Assembly: GCA_009991955.1 (NCBI GenBank)
Contig: JAACWS010000021.1
Span: 1 to 64,000, forward strand
Direction of reading: 5' to 3'
From: Spirochaetales bacterium
GTDB lineage: Bacteria; Spirochaetota; Spirochaetia; DSM-27196; Salinispiraceae
DNA: 64,000 bases
Shown: in pieces, positions 4,538 through 47,783 of the stretch
Layout: every line of letters begins with the position of its first letter
How positions within the stretch are numbered: the stretch's first letter is position 1
Translations under genes and position numbers: made by a program
Notes under the pieces: generated by a model
Database searches by the model: none
Told to the model about the DNA's origin: nothing
Seen by the model: the letters and a program-made list of their open reading frames with translations, nothing else

Positions 4538-4557
4538 GTCATTGTGGTGCAATGACC
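4538..4557. repeat. GGTCATTG palindrome, copy A (galT leader)
   Basis: GTCATTG and CAATGAC (7-bp arms) are separated by TGGTG. This copy lacks the first outer G found in the other copies, and its right arm continues as CAATGACC. It lies in the galT leader, 54 bp before the start codon, where it could act as an operator or as an RNA stem. Confidence 0.6.
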
Positions 4558-4610
4558 AACGTAGCCAGAAAACAAGATTTTGGAGGTCCCCACATTTTGA
4601 GGAGGCTCCC

Positions 4611-5669
4611 TTGGAAAATCTCTTTACATCGCCCCATCGACGCTACAATCCCCTAACCGGTGAGTGGGTCAAGGTGAGTCCCCATCGGACCAAAAGGCCC
4701 TGGCAGGGTCGCACCGAGCAAACGGCCCTGGACTCCCGACCCGCCTACGACCCCGAGTGTTACCTGTGTCCCGGTAATACTCGCAGCAATGGGGAGGTAA
4801 ACCCCCAGTACGCCCACACTTTTAGTTTCCTGAACGATTTTTCGGCCATCTTGCCCGACAACGACCACCAGGCCGTCGAGGATGGGCTTTTCCAGGCCCA
4901 ACCCGAGCGGGGAATTTGTAAGGTGTTGTGTTTTAGCCCCCGGCACGATTTGACTATACCCCGAATGAATCAGTCTGAGGTTGAGGAGGTCGTGCAAACT
5001 TGGAAGCGGGAATACCACGAAATCGCTCAAAATCCATGGATCCAGCATATTCAAATTTTTGAAAACCACGGGAGCCTCATGGGGTGTTCAAACCCCCACC
5101 CCCATGGGCAAATTTGGGCCGAGAATATTCTTCCCGATATACCCGCGAAGGAAGACAAAAAGCAGAGAGCCTACTACCAGGCCCAGGGAAACAATCTGCT
5201 CATCGACTACGTCCAAGCAGAGGTGGTCAAGGGCGATCGCATAGTCGTGGAAAATAACGATTTTGTGGCCCTGGTGCCCTACTGGGCGGTGTGGCCCTAC
5301 GAAACCCTGGTTCTGCCCCGGGCCCAGGTAAAGAGTCTGGCCGAATTTGACCAGCACCTCATTTCGTCCTTGGCCGATCTCATGATTCGTTTAGGAATTC
5401 GCTACGACAATCTTTTTCAGACCGACTTTCCCTACTCCATGGGGCTCCATCAGGCGCCGGTGAATCGGAAACTGGATAATCCCCATGAAGCCGAGGACCA
5501 TTGGACCTTCCATATGCATTACTATCCACCCTTGTTGCGCAGTGCGGCGATTAAAAAATTTATGGTTGGATACGAGATGATGGCCATGCCCCAGCGAGAT
5601 ATTACCCCCGAAACGGCGGCAGAAATACTGCGAGCCGTTTCCGACATCCATTACCGAGCCGAGGGATAA
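4611..5669 (+). CDS. galT: Galactose-1-phosphate uridylyltransferase
   Basis: Class I GalT of the HIT superfamily, exchanging UMP between UDP-glucose and galactose-1-phosphate (Leloir pathway, cytoplasm). With the TTG start the protein has 352 residues, close to the E. coli enzyme. Cys50 and Cys53 (ECYLC) fit the structural metal site. The active-site run NPHPHGQ lies at residues 161-167, with His165 the likely nucleophile. I chose TTG at 4611 because GAGGAGG sits 5 nt before it and the preceding in-frame codons run into the operator palindrome. It is the first gene of galT-galK-galE, with 4 nt to galK. Confidence 0.92.
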   Translation: MENLFTSPHRRYNPLTGEWVKVSPHRTKRPWQGRTEQTALDSRPAYDPECYLCPGNTRSNGEVNPQYAHTFSFLNDFSAILPDNDHQAVEDGLFQAQPERGICKVLCFSPRHDLTIPRMNQSEVEEVVQTWKREYHEIAQNPWIQHIQIFENHGSLMGCSNPHPHGQIWAENILPDIPAKEDKKQRAYYQAQGNNLLIDYVQAEVVKGDRIVVENNDFVALVPYWAVWPYETLVLPRAQVKSLAEFDQHLISSLADLMIRLGIRYDNLFQTDFPYSMGLHQAPVNRKLDNPHEAEDHWTFHMHYYPPLLRSAAIKKFMVGYEMMAMPQRDITPETAAEILRAVSDIHYRAEG

Positions 5670-5673
5670 CACG

Positions 5674-6972
5674 ATGGCACTTGGAAAAGATTGGATCGAG
5701 TCGATTTCCTCAGGGAAACTTTCGAAGGTATTTTCGGATCTGTATCCGAACTCGTCTGACCAGGCATCCCGATATTCCGAACTTCTTCGAATCTACGCCG
5801 ATCGGTTTGGATTCTCGGGTGAGGTTAGGCTTTTTTCTACCCCCGGTCGGACCGAGTTGGCGGGGAATCATACCGACCATAATCACGGCAGGGTCATAGC
5901 GGGTTCGGTTCATTTGGATGCTGTTGCTGCCGTGGGCCCTGCTACCGAAGAGGGGTTGGTTCGGGTGTTTTCGACCGACTTGGACCAAGAATTTATAGTC
6001 TCGCTTCACACCTTGGAGGTTAACCCGGAAGAAATGGGTTCTACCGAGGCCCTTATCCGGGGGGTGGCGGCTTGGTTTGTTCAGAAAGATAAGAGGATTG
6101 GTGGCTTTTCCATGGTCCTTCAGAGTAACGTTCTGCGGGGCTCGGGGCTTTCCAGTTCGGCCTGTGTAGAGGTCCTTTTTGCCACGGTGTTCGACCGAGT
6201 TTACAATGGGGGAACGGTGTCCCCGGTTCAGCGGGCTATTTGCGGTCAGTTTGCCGAGAACGTGTATTTTGGAAAACCTAGTGGGCTCATGGATCAGACC
6301 GCTTGTAGTGTGGGTGGGGTTGTAGGCATCGATTTTAAAAATCCCCAGGATCCCCAGGTAAGCAAAGTCGAGGTTGATTTTGGAGCCTCGGGGTACCGCT
6401 TAGCGATTATCAATACCAAGAGCGACCATACCGGTGGGGCCGATGATTACGGTGCTATGCCCCGGGAAATGAAGCTAGTGGCCCAGGCCCTAGGCGCCCA
6501 GGTGTTGGCAGAAGTTGAACCCAGTCGGTTTTGGGGTGATTTTTTGCCTTTGAAAACCCAATTGCCTGGGAGGGCTATGGCCCGGGCAGGTCACTTTTTT
6601 TTGGAGAATGCCCGGGTACCCCGGATGCTTGCATGTCTTACCGCCAGGCCCCCGGATTTTGCCTCGTGGCTGAGAATGGTGGCCGAGTCGGGCAACAGTT
6701 CGTACAAGTACTTGCAGAACGCTATCGATGAGGTAGAAAATCAGGACTACGCCCTGGCGATTATGCTGGCGGAGGCCTATGAAGGGTGCTCTGGCCAGCA
6801 GGTAGTGGCCCGGGTTCATGGTGGGGGTCTGGGTGGTACCATCCAGGTCTACGTGCCCCAGGGCGACTGGACAGAATTTGTGCGACACATGGAAACGGGC
6901 CTGGGTGAGGGGTGTGTAATCCCCTTAAGAATTCGAAATTATGGCAGCATCGAAATAGAGGAGATTCTATGA
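5674..6972 (+). CDS. galK: Galactokinase
   Basis: GHMP-family kinase, 432 residues, phosphorylating galactose at C1 with ATP. The galactokinase signature GRTELAGNHTDHNHG is at residues 58-72 and the phosphate-binding GSGLSSSACVEV near residue 160. The C-terminal GHMP motif (VHGGGLGGTIQVYV) is also present. It is about 40 residues longer than E. coli GalK, partly through an N-terminal segment of about 25 residues. It starts 4 nt after galT, and its TGA overlaps the galE ATG (ATGA), so the three genes form one coupled operon converting galactose to glucose-1-phosphate and UDP-galactose. Confidence 0.93.
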   Translation: MALGKDWIESISSGKLSKVFSDLYPNSSDQASRYSELLRIYADRFGFSGEVRLFSTPGRTELAGNHTDHNHGRVIAGSVHLDAVAAVGPATEEGLVRVFSTDLDQEFIVSLHTLEVNPEEMGSTEALIRGVAAWFVQKDKRIGGFSMVLQSNVLRGSGLSSSACVEVLFATVFDRVYNGGTVSPVQRAICGQFAENVYFGKPSGLMDQTACSVGGVVGIDFKNPQDPQVSKVEVDFGASGYRLAIINTKSDHTGGADDYGAMPREMKLVAQALGAQVLAEVEPSRFWGDFLPLKTQLPGRAMARAGHFFLENARVPRMLACLTARPPDFASWLRMVAESGNSSYKYLQNAIDEVENQDYALAIMLAEAYEGCSGQQVVARVHGGGLGGTIQVYVPQGDWTEFVRHMETGLGEGCVIPLRIRNYGSIEIEEIL

Positions 6973-8000
6973 AAGTTCTGGTAACCGGCGGGGCAGGGTA
7001 TATTGGCAGTACAGTGGTTCGGGCATTGCTCGACCAGGGGCATTCGGCGGTGGTTTTGGACAGCCTGGTAACTGGCCAGCGAAAGTTTGCCGAAGGGGTG
7101 GCTGGGGTAAAGTTCTACCACGGTGACATCGCCGATCGGGGAATTGTAAAGAAGATCTTCCTGGATAATCCGGAAATTTCCACCGTCATTCACTGTGCGG
7201 CCCTCATTATTGTTCCCGAAAGTGCGGACCACCCGGCTAAGTATTACCGGGAGAACGTCGCAAAATCTGTCGAGTTGTTCGACGTACTATCCGAACTCGG
7301 AGGAAAGAATCTCGTTTTTTCCTCCAGCGCGAGTATTTATGGAAATGTAGAAGGATTCAAGGTCACCGAGACCTCGCCTCTGAATCCCAGCAGCCCCTAC
7401 GCCCGGACCAAGTTTATGATGGAAATGGTCTTGCAGGATTTTTGTGCGGCCTACGATTTGCGCGGTCTGGCACTGCGGTATTTTAACCCTATTGGTGCCG
7501 ACCCTCAGTTGCGCACCGGCGGGTATGTGAAGAACCCCAGCCACGTGTTGGCCAAGTTGGTGAACGCGGCCTTGGGCATTGAAGGTGAGTTTAAGGTGAC
7601 CGGGGTCGATTGGCCGACCCGGGATGGGTCGGGAATCCGGGACTATATTCACATTTGGGACCTGGCCCGGGCCCACGTCAAGGCTGCTGAAGCCATTGAG
7701 GCCGGTGGTCTGTTTGACCGTCGGGATGGAGATGTCACCAGCCTGCGGTACCAGGTAATTAACGTGGGCACCGGAAACGGGGTTACGGTGCGCGAACTGG
7801 TCGATGGGTTCAAACAGGTATGGAGTGGTGAGGTGCCGGTGTCCGAGGCTCCTGCCCGGCCCGGCGACGTCGCCGGAGCCTTTGCGGATATTTCCAAGGC
7901 CCAACGCTTATTGGGTTGGAGTCCCGAGCTTACCACTGCCGAGGCGATTAAGGCAGAGTTGGATTGGCGCGAAGCCAGGAAGGGGATTTTGGGGTATTAG
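6969..8000 (+). CDS. galE: UDP-glucose 4-epimerase
   Basis: Extended SDR enzyme of 343 residues that interconverts UDP-galactose and UDP-glucose using tightly bound NAD. The N-terminal GGAGYIGS Rossmann motif, the SSSASIYG active-site Ser/Thr region and SPYARTK (catalytic Tyr-X3-Lys) are all present, followed by LRYFNPIGAD. The ATG at 6969 is preceded by GAGGAG and overlaps the galK stop. The 3' end overlaps the convergent radical SAM gene by four bases, with TAG on the plus strand and TAA on the minus strand interlocked. Confidence 0.93.
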   Translation: MKVLVTGGAGYIGSTVVRALLDQGHSAVVLDSLVTGQRKFAEGVAGVKFYHGDIADRGIVKKIFLDNPEISTVIHCAALIIVPESADHPAKYYRENVAKSVELFDVLSELGGKNLVFSSSASIYGNVEGFKVTETSPLNPSSPYARTKFMMEMVLQDFCAAYDLRGLALRYFNPIGADPQLRTGGYVKNPSHVLAKLVNAALGIEGEFKVTGVDWPTRDGSGIRDYIHIWDLARAHVKAAEAIEAGGLFDRRDGDVTSLRYQVINVGTGNGVTVRELVDGFKQVWSGEVPVSEAPARPGDVAGAFADISKAQRLLGWSPELTTAEAIKAELDWREARKGILGY

Positions 8001-9205
8001 GGGCCGAAAAAGGCCCTATAGTCTGCCGCCGGTCGACGGGCTGTTAGGGCCTTGGTCATGGCCCGGAAATAGGGCTTTGTTTCGCGATAGAAATCGAAGT
8101 AGCCCTGACACAGGTAGTTGAGTTTGCCCGACTTGGTCTGGATAAGGCGGTCTTTGGGGCAGGCGCCGTAACAGAGGTGCAGGTAAGGACAGGTTTTGCA
8201 CTTGTCTGGTAAGGCGGTGTATTTCGAGGTTCCAAATTCCTTTTGGGCCGGCTGATCGATAATCTCGGTTACCGAATGATGGTTCAGGTTTCCGAGGAAG
8301 TATTCGGGGCTCACGAAGTGGTCACAGGAGTACACGTCCCCGTTGTGTTCGATAGCCATGGCCCGGCCACATTCTTTGGAGTGGACACACAGGGATGCGG
8401 GGTAGCCGGCGTAGATTCCCAGAATCATATCGAAGTGTTGTACGAATATTCGACCGATGTCTTTTTTTCTCCATTCATGAAAAACACCGTTAAGGAACGA
8501 GCCCCACTGGGCGGGACGAACCGAACGAGGGTTCACCAGGGAGAGTGGGTCGTCGCCGATTCTTGCTTCCCGGGCCTTGGTCGAAGGTTCCACAATCGGA
8601 ATAAATTGGAGATAGGTCGACCCAATCGATGTGAGGAAGTTGTACACTTCTACCGGGTGGTCGGCGTTGTTTTCTTGCACCACCGTCAGGGTGTTAAAAT
8701 CCACCCCGTGTTTCTTGAGGTTTTCTAAGCCTGCCATGACGTCTTTGAAGGTTCCTTGCCCCACCCGGTCTACCCGGTATCGGTTATGGAGTTCCTCTGG
8801 TCCATCGATGCTCACTCCAACTAAAAATCCGTGGTCTTTGAAAAAGGATGCAAACTCGTCGCCGACTAATATTCCGTTAGTTTGGAAGGCGTTGAGGATT
8901 TTTACCCCCGCTGGAGCGTATTTTTGCTGATATTCCACGGCTTTTTCGTAGAATCGCACGCCCAAGAGGGTTGGTTCGCCCCCCTGCCAGGCGAAGGGTA
9001 TTTCTTTTAGCCCCTCGGGCTGGCTCTGAATATACCTGCGGACGTAGTTTTCCAGGGTCTCATCGGTCATGGTAAAGGCGGACCGATTTTTGGCGTCGGG
9101 GTAGAGTTTTTCTTTTTCTAGGTAGAAACAGTATTCACAGCGAATATTACAGAGGGCGCCGATAGGTTTTGCCATAAAATGGAAGGGAGTCTGAGTTCTG
9201 GTCAT
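7997..9205 (-). CDS. Radical SAM enzyme, anaerobic sulfatase-maturating type with SPASM domain
   Basis: A 402-residue radical SAM protein closely resembling anSME, which oxidises an active-site Cys or Ser of sulfatases to formylglycine. Cys19-X3-Cys23-X2-Cys26 (CNIRCEYC) would hold the SAM-cleaving 4Fe-4S cluster, and AWQGGEPTLLG is the GGE motif. The C-terminal SPASM region is rich in Cys (CVHSKECGRAM, SCDHF, CKTCPYLHLCYGACPKDRL). It is the last gene of gntR-chrA1-chrA2-anSME, and its ATG overlaps the chrA2 stop. No sulfatase is encoded nearby, so its target may be elsewhere in the genome or may not be a sulfatase. Confidence 0.85.
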   Translation of the reverse strand: MTRTQTPFHFMAKPIGALCNIRCEYCFYLEKEKLYPDAKNRSAFTMTDETLENYVRRYIQSQPEGLKEIPFAWQGGEPTLLGVRFYEKAVEYQQKYAPAGVKILNAFQTNGILVGDEFASFFKDHGFLVGVSIDGPEELHNRYRVDRVGQGTFKDVMAGLENLKKHGVDFNTLTVVQENNADHPVEVYNFLTSIGSTYLQFIPIVEPSTKAREARIGDDPLSLVNPRSVRPAQWGSFLNGVFHEWRKKDIGRIFVQHFDMILGIYAGYPASLCVHSKECGRAMAIEHNGDVYSCDHFVSPEYFLGNLNHHSVTEIIDQPAQKEFGTSKYTALPDKCKTCPYLHLCYGACPKDRLIQTKSGKLNYLCQGYFDFYRETKPYFRAMTKALTARRPAADYRAFFGP

Positions 9206-9720
9206 AGAAAAAGGATACCCCCAAAGGCGGCGGCCACCAAGAGCCAGGCGGGATGGAGTTTGGTGCGAGCCAGAATTGCCAAGCCCACGAGTGAGATGAT
9301 TACTGGTCCCCATCCGGTTAGGGCCACCTTTCCGATGGAGAAAGCACTGTACAAAATGAGGGCAACGATTCCCGGGCGTAGGCCATTCATAAGGTCCTGG
9401 ACGAGGGGTGTTTTTAAGAACCGAAAGGCTATCGTAGCAAGGATCAACATAAGAATGACCGGAACGGTAACAACTCCCAAGGTAGCAAGGGCGGCTCCAC
9501 CGACTCCACCAACCTTAAAACCAATGAAAGTTGCGGTATTAACGGCTATTGGCCCGGGGGTCATTTCAACGATAGCCAAAAGTTCGGCGAAGGTTTCGTG
9601 GGTAAGCCAATTTCTTTTTGTGATGATTTCTAATTCTATGAGAGGCAAGGACGCGTATCCTCCCCCAAAGCTGAAGGCACCAATTTGTAGAAAGGTCAAA
9701 AATAAGGTCAATAGATTCAT
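9202..9720 (-). CDS. Chromate transporter, short-chain ChrA subunit 2
   Basis: A 172-residue membrane protein of the CHR family, with the short-chain architecture in which two half-size proteins act as a pair. Typical motifs are FSFGGGYASLPL near the N-terminus and EMTPGPIAVNTATFIG around residue 52. Some CHR proteins export chromate; for the short pairs the natural substrate is often unknown. The ATG at 9720 has GAGGAGAAT upstream and overlaps the stop of the first half. Its own stop overlaps the radical SAM start. Confidence 0.85.
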   Translation of the reverse strand: MNLLTLFLTFLQIGAFSFGGGYASLPLIELEIITKRNWLTHETFAELLAIVEMTPGPIAVNTATFIGFKVGGVGGAALATLGVVTVPVILMLILATIAFRFLKTPLVQDLMNGLRPGIVALILYSAFSIGKVALTGWGPVIISLVGLAILARTKLHPAWLLVAAAFGGILFL

Positions 9721-10271
9721 TCTTTTGATTCTCCTCGGCGTGCACGACGAGACAATGGCCCATAGAGGAGTCCCGAGGCCCCTGAGAGTAGGACTATTAG
9801 GTAGGGGTTGACCTGAACAAAAATCATCAAGGATAACCAGGCTAGGGTCCCCAGAACCAAGAACCAGTTTATGTGGTGGAGGGAGACTTTCCAGGCAGCA
9901 AAGACAATGAGGGATACTACAAGTCCGAGAATACCCCGGAAGGCTGAAACTACCTGGGGAAGATCGGTATAGGGCATGAACCACAGGGCAATCGAGAGAA
10001 TCACTAAAAAAGAGGGGAGTATTACGCCCAATCCTGTAGCGAGTGCGCCCCTAGTACCCAAAGCTTTGTACCCAACCATGACGGCGGTGTTTACCGCTAT
10101 GGGGCCTGGAGCTGACTGGGCAATGAGAAGTACGTCTGACACTTCGTCATGGGTCAGAAGATTCGATGCGGTAGATATCTCGTGCTGAATAAGGGGAATC
10201 ATTGCGTATCCTCCCCCTAGGGTGAATAGGCCTATACGGAAAAAACGTGTGAAGAGGGCAAGGTAGATCAA
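9717..10271 (-). CDS. Chromate transporter, short-chain ChrA subunit 1
   Basis: A 184-residue CHR-family membrane protein, partner of the following half. Motifs FTLGGGYAMIPL and QSAPGPIAVNTAVMVG align with the same positions in subunit 2, showing the internal homology of the pair. The C-terminus is basic (RRARRGESKE), probably cytoplasmic. It sits between gntR and chrA2 with four-base ATGA overlaps on both sides, so expression should follow the GntR regulator. Transport of chromate or sulfate is inferred from the family only. Confidence 0.85.
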   Translation of the reverse strand: MIYLALFTRFFRIGLFTLGGGYAMIPLIQHEISTASNLLTHDEVSDVLLIAQSAPGPIAVNTAVMVGYKALGTRGALATGLGVILPSFLVILSIALWFMPYTDLPQVVSAFRGILGLVVSLIVFAAWKVSLHHINWFLVLGTLAWLSLMIFVQVNPYLIVLLSGASGLLYGPLSRRARRGESKE

Positions 10272-10975
10272 AATGGTTTCCTTTCAATAACGAGGTCCGA
10301 GCGAAAGCGCACCCGGTCTGGGCGAACGAGAGTCGTTCGAATTTCGATTATTCGGTTTTGGGTGTCAAAGGTAGTCCTGTAGGTTTGTAAAGCCGGCTGA
10401 CCGGGTAAAATTTCGAGGTATTTCGATTCAACGGGCTTTGGAAGGACGGGTTCAAGGTATTCCTGGGATTTTCCGTATTCGATTCCGTACACTTCTTCCA
10501 GGATTCCGTAAAGGGACTGGGTTTCCAGGTCGTAATTTTCAAGGTCTGGAGCAATTGCGATGGGTATCCATGATTGCTCAAGGGCCAGGGGTCGTTTATC
10601 CAAAAGACGGAGGCGTAAAACCGAGTAACCTTCCTCTTGGGGGTCCTTTTTCAGGCTAAGGAGGGTAGTCGAGAGCCGGAGGTTAGGGTCCTGGTAACGG
10701 TGCCCAAAGCTGTAAAAATTGTGGAGGTTTTGTTCGAGAGGCGGGGTCTTTATGCGGGTGCCTTGGCCTCGCCGACTTTCCAAGTATCCCTTTCGCTTAA
10801 GTACCTCGGTAGCCTGCCGGACCGTAAGGCGGGTGACACCAAATTCCTCGGCCAAATCGTTTTCTGGAGGCAAGAGGCTATCGAGAGAGTAAATGTGTTC
10901 GGTGATTCGTCTTTCGAGTATTTGGCGAATTTGTTCGTAGAGAGGAATGGGGCTGTGGTGGTCTATGAGGCTCAC
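10268..10975 (-). CDS. GntR-family transcriptional regulator (HutC/UTRA type)
   Basis: A 235-residue regulator. The N-terminal winged helix (residues about 10-75, PLYEQIRQILERRI through FGVTRLTVRQATEVLKRKGYLESRRGQGT) is typical of GntR. Residues about 90-230 fit the UTRA ligand-binding domain of the HutC subfamily. It leads an operon with two chromate-transporter halves and a radical SAM enzyme, joined by four-base overlaps. A perfect 16-bp palindrome 9 bp before its start is its likely own operator. The ligand is unknown. It lies 32 bp behind the AraC-type gene and could also be read from that promoter. Confidence 0.88.
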   Translation of the reverse strand: MSLIDHHSPIPLYEQIRQILERRITEHIYSLDSLLPPENDLAEEFGVTRLTVRQATEVLKRKGYLESRRGQGTRIKTPPLEQNLHNFYSFGHRYQDPNLRLSTTLLSLKKDPQEEGYSVLRLRLLDKRPLALEQSWIPIAIAPDLENYDLETQSLYGILEEVYGIEYGKSQEYLEPVLPKPVESKYLEILPGQPALQTYRTTFDTQNRIIEIRTTLVRPDRVRFRSDLVIERKPF

Positions 10976-10983
10976 GGATAAAA

Positions 10984-10999
10984 GTATAGATATCTATAC
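10984..10999. promoter_or_regulatory. GntR autoregulatory operator (palindrome)
   Basis: GTATAGATATCTATAC is a perfect 16-bp palindrome in the 32-bp gap before gntR. Position, perfect symmetry and AT-rich character fit a HutC/YtrA-type GntR operator. Binding is inferred. Confidence 0.6.
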
Positions 11000-11007
11000 A
11001 AATTTAT

Positions 11008-11874
11008 TCAAGATCTATGAGGGACAATTCTGTAGGCTTTGGGCGATGTACCCACTATCTGGCGAAATTGGTGAACGAAGCTCGAGGAGTCGAGGTAACC
11101 CAGGGTCTTGGCTATCTCGGTGACCGACTGGGGTGAGTAAATAAGAAGGTTCTGGGCTCGGCGAATTCGGGCATGAATCTGGTAGGTTTTCATTGATAGT
11201 CCGGTGCGATCGCGAAACTGCTTACGGAGGAGGGAGTAGCGGATGCCCAGGTTCTGGGCAATTGCCTCGGGAGGAACGAGGTGGTCGGATTCTATGGCTT
11301 GCTGGGCGGCAACAACCTTGTCCGGGGGGGCTTTGATATGGGGATTTCGTTGCTCAGGTACCTCGAGGGTGATTTTGGGGTTCCGTTCCTGATGAATAAG
11401 TTCGAGGCTAAGGGCCTGAAGCCCGAGGAAAACCTGGTCGTGGGTCGATTCATCGCTTCGATCGAGGGTATCGATCATCGAAACCCAGCGGGAGATGAGG
11501 GCTTCGTTCAGGCCCGGATTCCAGACCCGCAGATTTTCGGGTATGCGTCCCAGGGCAACGAGTCCACGATAGATAGGTGCACCGAAGGCCACAAAGAGTT
11601 CGATCCATTGGCCGTCGGGAAAAACCAGGGACGAGTGGCGCTCGCCGGGAACTCGTAAGAAGGCCGAGCCGGGCTTCAGAGGAATAATGGAGCCGGTAGA
11701 ATCGACGAAGGTGCCTCGCCCTTCGATGAGCCATATAATTCCGAAGTGGGGAAAGCGGGCGTCCTGATGACTATCCCGAGTGCTTGTTTTTTGGATGATT
11801 CCACAACCGACCAGGCCAGCGGTTGGATCCTGACCGAGGGTACGAAAAACCAGGCGTGTGGATAAATCGTGCAT
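11008..11874 (-). CDS. AraC-family transcriptional regulator, likely lactose/galactoside regulator
   Basis: A one-component AraC regulator of 288 residues. The N-terminal part looks like the cupin sensing domain (FGIIWLIEGRGTFVD, LKPGSAFLRVPGERHSS). The C-terminal 90 residues carry two helix-turn-helix units, ending in SVTEIAKTLGYLDSSSFVHQFRQIVGTSPKAYR. It is divergent from lacZ, and a pair of 15-bp direct repeats spaced 21 bp, the usual geometry for AraC dimers, lies between them. I chose the ATG at 11874; an in-frame TTG at 11901 would reach into the operator. There is no clear ribosome binding site. It probably activates lacZ in response to a galactoside (inference). Confidence 0.85.
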   Translation of the reverse strand: MHDLSTRLVFRTLGQDPTAGLVGCGIIQKTSTRDSHQDARFPHFGIIWLIEGRGTFVDSTGSIIPLKPGSAFLRVPGERHSSLVFPDGQWIELFVAFGAPIYRGLVALGRIPENLRVWNPGLNEALISRWVSMIDTLDRSDESTHDQVFLGLQALSLELIHQERNPKITLEVPEQRNPHIKAPPDKVVAAQQAIESDHLVPPEAIAQNLGIRYSLLRKQFRDRTGLSMKTYQIHARIRRAQNLLIYSPQSVTEIAKTLGYLDSSSFVHQFRQIVGTSPKAYRIVPHRS

Positions 11875-11887
11875 GAGTATAGTGTAG

Positions 11888-15247
<3,360 letters not shown>

Positions 15248-45422: not shown

Positions 45423-47783
45423 TTGAGAGACTGGAAAAACCGGGGGATTTCTCAAAAAGACCTTTCCCGCTCAATGTCCATAAGCTACGTTTCCGGAGCC
45501 TTGGGCATTATGTGGCTGGTAACCGCAACGCCCCAACAAATTCTGACGGTCTTTATCCGAAACTACCTCGAGGCTACCTCTACCCAATTGGGTCTTTTAG
45601 TAGGAACGGTCAATGCCCTGGCACTCTTGAACTTGGCGGCAATCTGGTTCTATGGTTTACTCAAGGGGCAGCGAAAACCCTTCTTTATACTTACAACCCT
45701 TATCCAGCGCAGTGCGGCTTTTCTCATCGCCTTTGCAGCCTTTGGGGTTGCTTCGGGGGGAGATAAGGACTTTGCTATTCGCCTGGTCCTTGTGGCGGGT
45801 ATCATTGGTGCCCTCTTTGGCAGTTCGAGCGGATCGGGCTGGTGGTCGTGGATGGCTGACCTCATTCCCGAGGCGCGACGATCGGCCTTTTTTGGCCGTC
45901 GTTCGGCAATTAGTCAGTTTGTGAACGTCATCTTTTTCTTTAGTGCCACCTTTGCGGTCGATCTTTACGCAAAACAGGCTTTTGTGGTCTATGGAATACT
46001 CTTCTCCTTGGGAGCGTTGGCGGGCCTTGGAGACATATTGCTGCATATCTTCATTCCCGAACCAAAGCCCCTGGATGCCGATGTGGAACCTATGACCTGG
46101 CGGGAATTCTTTCGGCCCTTGCGGGACCGATCGTTTCGACAATTCTGTATTGTCTTGGGTATGTACCTCTTCTCCTTCAATTTGGCTGCCCCCTTTTTGG
46201 CTCCTTTCATGACCAGCCCGACCGGCGGCGGTGCGCCTACGGTGTGGTTAGGAATTACCTTTGTCATTAGTCAGCTAACCTGGGTCCTCATGGCGCCCTT
46301 TTGGGGAATGCTCATGGATCGAATGGGGAAAAAACCAATTGTAATGATCGGTGGGCTCATGGTGATTTCCTGGGTTGGTTACCTCTTTCTTGGTCCCTCA
46401 AACTACCCTTTTGTTCTGCCTCTTATCGCTTTGGTTGGGGGATTTTTTGCTCCCGCCTTTTGGGAAGGAATTAGTCAATTCATGATAGCCCTGTCCCCGG
46501 ACGAGAATCGAACCGCCTATTCGGCCTGGTATTGGACAGCCTTTGGGGTTAGTGCTTCGGTAAGCCCACTTTTGGGTGGGGTAATCTACGACTATCTGGA
46601 ACTTCATCCTTTAATTATAGGCAGATTTGCCGCTTCTCCTTTTCAGACCGTGGTTTCCCTTTCTATTGTCTTGGTCCTTTTTAGCCTGACCCACCTAGGA
46701 CGGATAACTACCCTTCGGGACAAGAGCGTAAGGGCAGTTGTCGGGACTATTCTAAACCCGGGCATTTTTCGGGCGGTTACAAATATTTCTATCCTCGGCC
46801 GTCCTACTCGAGCCCTGGTGGTTCAGCGAACCCTTGAGGACAGTCGGGGAGGTGCGCTCGATCTGGGGTTTGCCGAAATTAGTATTCGTCTCGATGACCC
46901 GGTGGCCGAAGTGCGAGAGGCAGCAATTCAAGCTATGGTTCGGCTCGGTACCCCCGAGGCAGTCCATGAGTTGGTCTCTCGCCTATCTTCGAGTGAGACC
47001 CTTTCTCGACCAAAACTTGCCCGGGCCCTGGGACTCATACCCCTCAAGAATGAAGCATTGAAAGAAGAGGTTTCTATTGCTCTGAGCCTAGCCCTTCAAG
47101 ATCCCAGTGAAGAGCTAGAAATAGAGGCCGCGGGAGCCCTTGGGCGAATTCAGTCCCAGGGTTCTCGGGGGATTCTTTTAGATTTCTTACGTCGTTCCGA
47201 TTCTTTGAAGGTCAAGGTAAGCTCAGCCGGGGCTGCAGCCCAACTGGGACTAGAGGAAGCGGCAGAAGAAATTTTCTTCTTACTCTTTACTACCGAGAAC
47301 TGGATATTACGAAGGCAGTTAGCTATTGCCTTGGGTGACCTTTTTGGAACCTCCGGGGAGATGTACCAGTATATGACTGGGGACTGGTCTCAGAATGTCC
47401 AGTCCTTTTATCAGCTGGCCGAGCAAAGCCAAAAACGGCTGGATAAAATCTTGGGTCGAGTCTCGGGGCGACGGGTTCTCTTGGGGCTTCCTATTAATCG
47501 GCACCTGGAGGCCCTTCCAGTGTATTACGAAAAGGGCGAATTTGCCGCGGCCTTTCGACTCGAGCTCGAAGTGTGGGGCGAAATTGAGCGCCATCCGGGA
47601 GTGAAGGCGATAATTCCTTCGGTAGTTCGGATGTTCTGGGATAAGACCTTGGGAATCATTGAAGAAGGAAACGAACCCAAGGCCCAGGAAGTAGTGCTGG
47701 GCCTCTATGGGTTGTATCGATGTCTATACCTTGCGGAGAACAATCGTCGAGTTATGACCGCCGAAACCAAAACTGTTCGATAG
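45423..47783 (+). CDS. MFS transporter fused to C-terminal HEAT-like repeats
   Basis: A protein of 786 residues. Residues about 15-430 form a major facilitator domain with about twelve membrane segments. Residues about 480-640 show helical HEAT-like repeats (DPVAEVREAAIQAMVRLGTPEAVHELV, DPSEELEIEAAGALGRIQSQGSRGILLDFL), and a helical tail follows. I chose TTG 45423 because AGGAGG lies 5 nt upstream; GTG 45417 would sit inside that site. It starts 9 nt after the GGDEF gene and may be co-transcribed. Its last 60 bp overlap the convergent fabF gene. The substrate is unknown; the repeats suggest a cytoplasmic partner. Confidence 0.85.
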   Translation: MRDWKNRGISQKDLSRSMSISYVSGALGIMWLVTATPQQILTVFIRNYLEATSTQLGLLVGTVNALALLNLAAIWFYGLLKGQRKPFFILTTLIQRSAAFLIAFAAFGVASGGDKDFAIRLVLVAGIIGALFGSSSGSGWWSWMADLIPEARRSAFFGRRSAISQFVNVIFFFSATFAVDLYAKQAFVVYGILFSLGALAGLGDILLHIFIPEPKPLDADVEPMTWREFFRPLRDRSFRQFCIVLGMYLFSFNLAAPFLAPFMTSPTGGGAPTVWLGITFVISQLTWVLMAPFWGMLMDRMGKKPIVMIGGLMVISWVGYLFLGPSNYPFVLPLIALVGGFFAPAFWEGISQFMIALSPDENRTAYSAWYWTAFGVSASVSPLLGGVIYDYLELHPLIIGRFAASPFQTVVSLSIVLVLFSLTHLGRITTLRDKSVRAVVGTILNPGIFRAVTNISILGRPTRALVVQRTLEDSRGGALDLGFAEISIRLDDPVAEVREAAIQAMVRLGTPEAVHELVSRLSSSETLSRPKLARALGLIPLKNEALKEEVSIALSLALQDPSEELEIEAAGALGRIQSQGSRGILLDFLRRSDSLKVKVSSAGAAAQLGLEEAAEEIFFLLFTTENWILRRQLAIALGDLFGTSGEMYQYMTGDWSQNVQSFYQLAEQSQKRLDKILGRVSGRRVLLGLPINRHLEALPVYYEKGEFAAAFRLELEVWGEIERHPGVKAIIPSVVRMFWDKTLGIIEEGNEPKAQEVVLGLYGLYRCLYLAENNRRVMTAETKTVR

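Follow-up and report, generated by a model that had tools for sequence, protein, structure and literature searches.

Chromate is an analogue of sulfate, and CHR proteins (the chromate transporter family, PF02417) occur in a great number of genomes from organisms that scarcely ever encounter chromate. The systems to be compared with the locus reported here include a sulfatase operon of pneumococci and the short CHR pairs of Bacillus. The pneumococcal operon encodes a phosphotransferase system (PTS), a sulfatase, a sulfatase-modifying enzyme and a TauE protein, and its authors propose, in the excerpts of PMC3302838 and PMC3283741, that the released sulfur anion is exported; TauE/SafE proteins are described as exporters of sulfite, sulfoacetate and sulfolactate in other pathways (PMC10413263, excerpt). 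Co-extrusion of sulfate is discussed for the short CHR pair of Bacillus in the excerpted part of PMC8940164. We describe a 64,000 nucleotide stretch (the window) of the genome of a Spirochaetales bacterium (GenBank assembly GCA_009991955.1, contig JAACWS010000021.1, positions 1 to 64,000; the source genome), in which a short CHR pair lies in one operon with an anaerobic sulfatase-maturating enzyme (anSME). Operons of sulfatase and exporter are already known; the present locus couples a sulfatase maturase to CHR proteins and leads to a proposal, open to test, on what short CHR pairs ordinarily do. A term search of the literature found no publication joining a chromate transporter with a sulfatase maturase or with sulfate efflux, and judged by their titles no publications naming both chromate transporter and sulfatase concern such an operon.

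The operon consists of four − strand genes in series, which encode a GntR-family regulator with a UTRA ligand domain (HutC-like; 235 aa, GTG start, 10268..10975), the short CHR proteins CHR1 (184 aa, 9717..10271) and CHR2 (172 aa, 9202..9720), and the anSME, a radical SAM/SPASM enzyme (402 aa, 7997..9205). Profile scores and coordinates agree with an earlier note, made from the sequence alone, which had described a coupled operon of GntR regulator, split chromate transporter and anSME. That note had also given all the junctions as ATGA; neighbouring genes do overlap by four bases at all three, but only the CHR1/CHR2 and CHR2/anSME overlaps are ATGA and that of GntR/CHR1 is TTGA, the start codon of CHR1 being TTG.

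We consider it fairly probable that this operon belongs to a cytosolic desulfation pathway, in which an imported sulfated substrate is cut by an anSME-activated sulfatase and the sulfate is exported by the CHR pair. The TctCBA transporter encoded on another contig (C19) would import a sulfated organic anion, and the Cys-type sulfatase of that contig would cut it in the cytosol and free sulfate. The window anSME would convert the active-site cysteine of this sulfatase (in CGPCR) to formylglycine without oxygen, and the CHR1-CHR2 pair would export the freed sulfate, which the genome seems unable to assimilate, so that the window operon would be the activation and waste-disposal half of the pathway. 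The sulfate would likely move out of the cytosol and not into it, and the proposal would fill a gap in cytosolic sulfatase pathways, namely the exit route of the waste sulfate.

The maturase, the CHR pair and a putative cytosolic sulfatase

In a profile search the anSME scores 482.3 bits against TIGR03942 (cut-off 349.45), and it also matches PF04055 and PF13186. It aligns with 4k36, a solved anSME of the C. perfringens type, over positions 7–378, nearly its whole length, and keeps the CxxxCxxC motif, the SPASM cysteines and an Asp that we take to be the catalytic residue, presumably D277 of the C. perfringens enzyme. The longer frame 7997-9313 is unnecessary, as the ATG at 9205 suffices. There is one anSME in the source genome.

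Both CHR proteins are well above the PF02417 cut-off of 28.6 bits (CHR1 138.7 bits, CHR2 158.1 bits). CHR1 covers positions 1–160 of TIGR00937, the double-domain ChrA model, and corresponds to the N-terminal half of ChrA, and CHR2 covers positions 204–368 and corresponds to the C-terminal half; the two fit the short-chain pair type of tandem single-domain proteins. They fall below the cut-off of TIGR00937 itself (89 and 82 bits versus 171.7) and below that of the chromate-efflux equivalogs NF053759/NF053760 (95 and 67 bits versus 250). We note that the source genome has a second CHR pair (L089 2374-3476, G000:C39), which is not near sulfatase genes; it is divergent from a regulator-like gene, behind which lie genes for a lipoyl/biotin-domain protein and then a flavoprotein.

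The source genome assembly (2.44 Mb in 90 contigs, 93% complete) contains PF00884 sulfatase matches on contigs C19 and C20 only. The C20 match is weak, below cut-off, and resembles a membrane phosphotransferase; the one sulfatase above cut-off is on C19 (L001 1492-2844) and carries the Cys-type motif CGPCR. The earlier note's remark that no sulfatase is nearby thus holds for the window contig, which has no match, and the search that it recommended, for CxPxR or SxPxR sulfatases elsewhere in the genome, is answered by the C19 enzyme. As read from its sequence, the fold of this sulfatase sets in only a few residues after the initiation codon, with no preceding hydrophobic stretch, and because the fold begins at once and no signal peptide is evident, the enzyme is probably cytosolic. 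Among solved sulfatases those most similar to it act on polysaccharides (E 1e-36 or weaker) and are too distant to indicate its substrate. The C19 operon has the order TctC-TctB-TctA-sulfatase-regulator, in which TctCBA is a tripartite tricarboxylate transporter (TTT) and the regulator is a GntR domain joined to a sugar-binding-protein domain (GntR/LacI type). A carboxylate substrate is suggested by the TTT transporter, but this is a lead at most.

Since the genome holds one anSME, the window enzyme is the sole oxygen-independent candidate to mature the C19 sulfatase. That it is the sole maturase of any kind was considered and rejected: a protein like the formylglycine-generating enzyme (FGE; L109, G000:C20:8499-9338) has both cysteines in RGGSYLCHASYCNRYR, which we take to be the FGE catalytic cysteines, and there are four weaker FGE-sulfatase domain matches besides. 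The genome appears, then, to carry both the oxygen-dependent and the oxygen-independent kinds of sulfatase maturase. PF01507 (PAPS reductase/CysD) has no match in the source genome, 7% of which may be absent from the assembly, versus matches in 14/14 control genomes, other assimilation genes not having been searched. The usual sulfate assimilation therefore seems to be missing, in which case sulfate would be waste and an exporter would be expected.

Gene order in related genomes

With the C19 sulfatase as query, 20 of 392 genomes of the phylum gave matches at E ≤ 1e-80. One of these, G424, belongs to another family of the same class; 16 of the 139 genomes searched in its order have the sulfatase, as do 8/274 genomes of the family of a further genome, G362. 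The G424 proteins are 80% (TctA), 75% (TctC), 68% (sulfatase), 67% (regulator) and 55% (TctB) identical to those of the C19 operon, and the G424 operon continues in the same direction from the regulator into anSME, CHR1 and CHR2. The order regulator-anSME-CHR1-CHR2 is present again in two of those 16 genomes, G505 and G508, and in two more of them, G506 and G513, of the same genus, a TauE/SafE gene replaces the CHR pair behind the anSME (regulator-anSME-TauE/SafE). TauE/SafE is also the neighbour of the anSME in G188 and, in G409, of one of its two anSME genes; the sulfatase-like genes at both G409 loci are only distantly related to the C19 sulfatase. An anSME is found in or beside a TctA-sulfatase cluster at 12 loci (L164-166, 168, 170-172, 222-225 and 246), three of which have a CHR pair, four TauE/SafE and five neither. 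CHR genes are present in 3/56 sulfatase or anSME stretches scanned, behind the anSME in all three. The stretches read in the G362 family, some of them truncated at contig ends, all lack CHR beside the sulfatase.

Because it occupies the same place as TauE/SafE, the CHR pair is a candidate sulfate exporter, and gene order in these genomes points to one ordinary role of CHR proteins, the release of sulfate after intracellular desulfation. The earlier note had put forward a link through sulfate, and the genomic Cys-type sulfatase, the anSME-CHR genes within TTT-sulfatase operons (three genomes) and the TauE/SafE substitution (two genomes) lend it support. It had recommended a survey for CHR pairs beside anSME-type genes, which finds such pairs behind the anSME in G424, G505 and G508 and the exact order GntR-CHR-CHR-anSME in the source genome only; an arrangement unique to this genome together with the lack of any encoded sulfatase, which it had named as evidence to the contrary, is not what the genomes show. 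A broader statement, that cytosolic sulfatase pathways have in such short CHR pairs their dedicated exporters of sulfate, functional stand-ins for TauE/SafE that were recruited at least twice beside unrelated anSME clades and whose efflux of chromate would be a by-product of their sulfate chemistry, seems to us evenly poised between right and wrong.

Some other features of these regions may be recorded here. In G362, where no exporter adjoins the TTT-sulfatase-anSME cluster, a CHR pair at L258 5951-7128 (G362:C2) stands alone; of the pairs at control loci it is the closest to the G424 pair. Two genomes of a single genus, with no anSME nearby, encode TauE-like membrane proteins, recognized by eye, at L230 6837-7622 and L231 13066-13857; their genes are convergent to the TTT-sulfatase operon and adjoin that of an ArsR-like regulator. 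At L231 9318-11976 (G481) a 378-aa transposase-like frame interrupts the sulfatase frame.

An anSME tree (114 full-length rows thinned to 96, with most Poribacteria dropped) groups the window anSME with the two G409 anSMEs, which have TTT-sulfatase surroundings, and with one from a spirochaete metagenome-assembled genome. The anSMEs of G424, G505, G506, G508 and G513 form a distant separate clade, and a single clade of these five with the window anSME was rejected by the approximately unbiased (AU) test (p=3.5e-5; the tree was a quick one and some of its branches are long). In the CHR trees, CHR genes of two genomes of the window's order, G001 and G002, cluster with the window CHR1 (99/95) and, with weaker support, with CHR2 (84/81). 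Since both the anSME clades and the gene orders differ, the simplest account would be at least two separate joinings of anSME and CHR, each from different parts, one within the sulfatase operon and the other elsewhere.

Several observations weigh against the proposed desulfation pathway. The sulfatase operon and the anSME-CHR operon of the source genome are on different contigs, its FGE could also activate the C19 sulfatase, in air, and the palindrome upstream of the window operon (below) has no copy with fewer than two mismatches elsewhere in the whole genome, as joint control might have left. Although the CHR trees favour separate origins, the AU test leaves a common origin of the window and G424 pairs unrejected (p 0.12 and 0.18). 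The CHR loci with an anSME come from one genus (g66) and the window, and therefore represent few independent events, about two. No CHR gene was near the anSME at the 61 related loci of other, named genomes (several ended by contig ends) or at the 21 loci scanned in the phylum out of 36 anSME matches, so that we reject CHR beside anSME as a widespread arrangement. An anSME above cut-off is present in 21 of the 46 genomes of the window's own order, and by comparison of coordinates CHR lies beside it in the source genome alone, as does the exact four-gene order. Such rarity also favours the view that the genes are neighbours by chance or opportunity: a CHR pair under its own regulation, serving the efflux of chromate or of oxyanions in general, would happen to share a transcript with an anSME that had landed beside the gal genes. 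CHR genes are common besides (31/46 genomes of the order, and further CHR genes in 11/11 genomes checked), and the operon lies between galE and lacZ, in a region that may have been rearranged. We nevertheless regard chance as unlikely, given the three four-base overlaps, the renewed occurrence of CHR1-CHR2 behind an anSME within the orthologous sulfatase operon of three other genomes, and the replacement of CHR by TauE at the same place. At 17 other CHR loci of those 11 genomes (8.4–14 kb read) no anSME, C19-type sulfatase, TctA/TctC or TauE gene was present, and in the window's order ten CHR loci likewise stand without an anSME or sulfatase neighbour.

A different cargo, with the CHR pair carrying sulfite or a desulfated carboxylate or exchanging sulfated substrate for sulfate in an importing antiport, would agree with the title of Nies et al. 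1998, which describes CHR as probably containing chromate/sulfate antiporters, and with the sulfite, sulfoacetate and sulfolactate export by TauE/SafE mentioned in the excerpt of PMC10413263. These operons, however, already have the TTT uptake system, and their sulfatase frees sulfate, not sulfite, with no sulfite-making enzyme seen in them, so we rate this less probable than chance. Least credible by a wide margin is that the anSME modifies another protein or peptide whose product the CHR pair serves. SPASM radical SAM enzymes are diverse, the anSME has matches to peptide-maturase models of NCBIfam, all far below their cut-offs, and FGE would be available for the sulfatase; yet the TIGR03942 score is above cut-off, a sulfatase lies in the flank of 32/61 related anSME loci, the nearest relatives in the anSME's clade (G409) stand within TTT-sulfatase clusters, and the operon showed no gene for a peptide. 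The desulfation pathway remains the account that we favour.

Regulator, palindrome and neighbouring genes

The GntR (PF00392, 61.8 bits) and UTRA (PF07702, 103.7 bits) domains of the regulator are above cut-off. A palindrome scan recovered the perfect 16-bp palindrome GTATAGATATCTATAC at 10984..10999, just where the earlier note had placed one; this candidate operator lies 8 nt before the regulator GTG and is one of two perfect 16-nt palindromes in the 64 kb window, and the chance of one in a base-shuffled 100-nt stretch is 0.2% (20000 draws). It overlaps the −10 of the sole − strand promoter-like match, TTGAAT-17-TATACT (10983..11011), a site recognized by consensus match alone in a scan whose yield does not exceed that from shuffled sequence. 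Autorepression by the GntR/UTRA protein is probable, and the protein would act at the palindrome on the whole operon until a ligand appears. An operator common to this and the sulfatase operon was rejected; up to three mismatches the whole genome contains 6 palindrome sites versus 8 for a backward control. With no second close copy, the sulfatase operon would be under its own GntR/LacI-type regulator. A copy with two mismatches at 47714-47729, close to where a FabF-like gene ends, is probably due to chance.

An AraC gene (11008-11901) lies just 32 nt upstream of the operon in the same direction, and read-through transcription from it is therefore possible. At the other end, a convergent galE shares a four-base overlap with the 3' end of the anSME gene. 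The surroundings form a galactose region, with galT-, galK- and galE-like genes (4542-8000, + strand) on one side and the AraC regulator and a lacZ-type beta-galactosidase (11008-15247) on the other; the position of the operon between them hints at a sulfated galactoside as substrate, again a lead at most.

Comparison with known systems

The window anSME shares the domain structure, CxxxCxxC motif and SPASM cysteines of the solved anSMEs (PDB 4k36-4k39), and differs from them in its genetic partners, which are a GntR/UTRA regulator and a CHR pair rather than a sulfatase gene. The CHR pair resembles Bacillus subtilis YwrB/YwrA in consisting of tandem single-domain proteins of about 170–200 aa. 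YwrB/YwrA are known for chromate efflux, with no sulfatase or anSME link described in the excerpted part of PMC8940164, and the window pair differs from pairs of that type in scoring far below the NF053759/NF053760 cut-offs.

The TctCBA-sulfatase-regulator-anSME-CHR1-CHR2 operon of G424, G505 and G508 has the same functional set as the two loci of the source genome, and its TctCBA, sulfatase and regulator genes are orthologous to those of C19; unlike in the window, its anSME is of another clade, its CHR genes are behind rather than before the anSME and it has no GntR/UTRA gene. As far as the excerpts of PMC3302838 and PMC3283741 describe it, the pneumococcal operon is alike in combining an import system, a cytosolic-type sulfatase, a maturation enzyme and an anion exporter; it uses a PTS and TauE/SafE in one operon, whereas the source genome has a TTT and a CHR pair at two loci. 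A single operon of the pneumococcal type, with sulfatase, maturase and exporter together, is absent from the source genome and present in G424, G505 and G508 with CHR as the putative exporter and in G506 and G513 with TauE.

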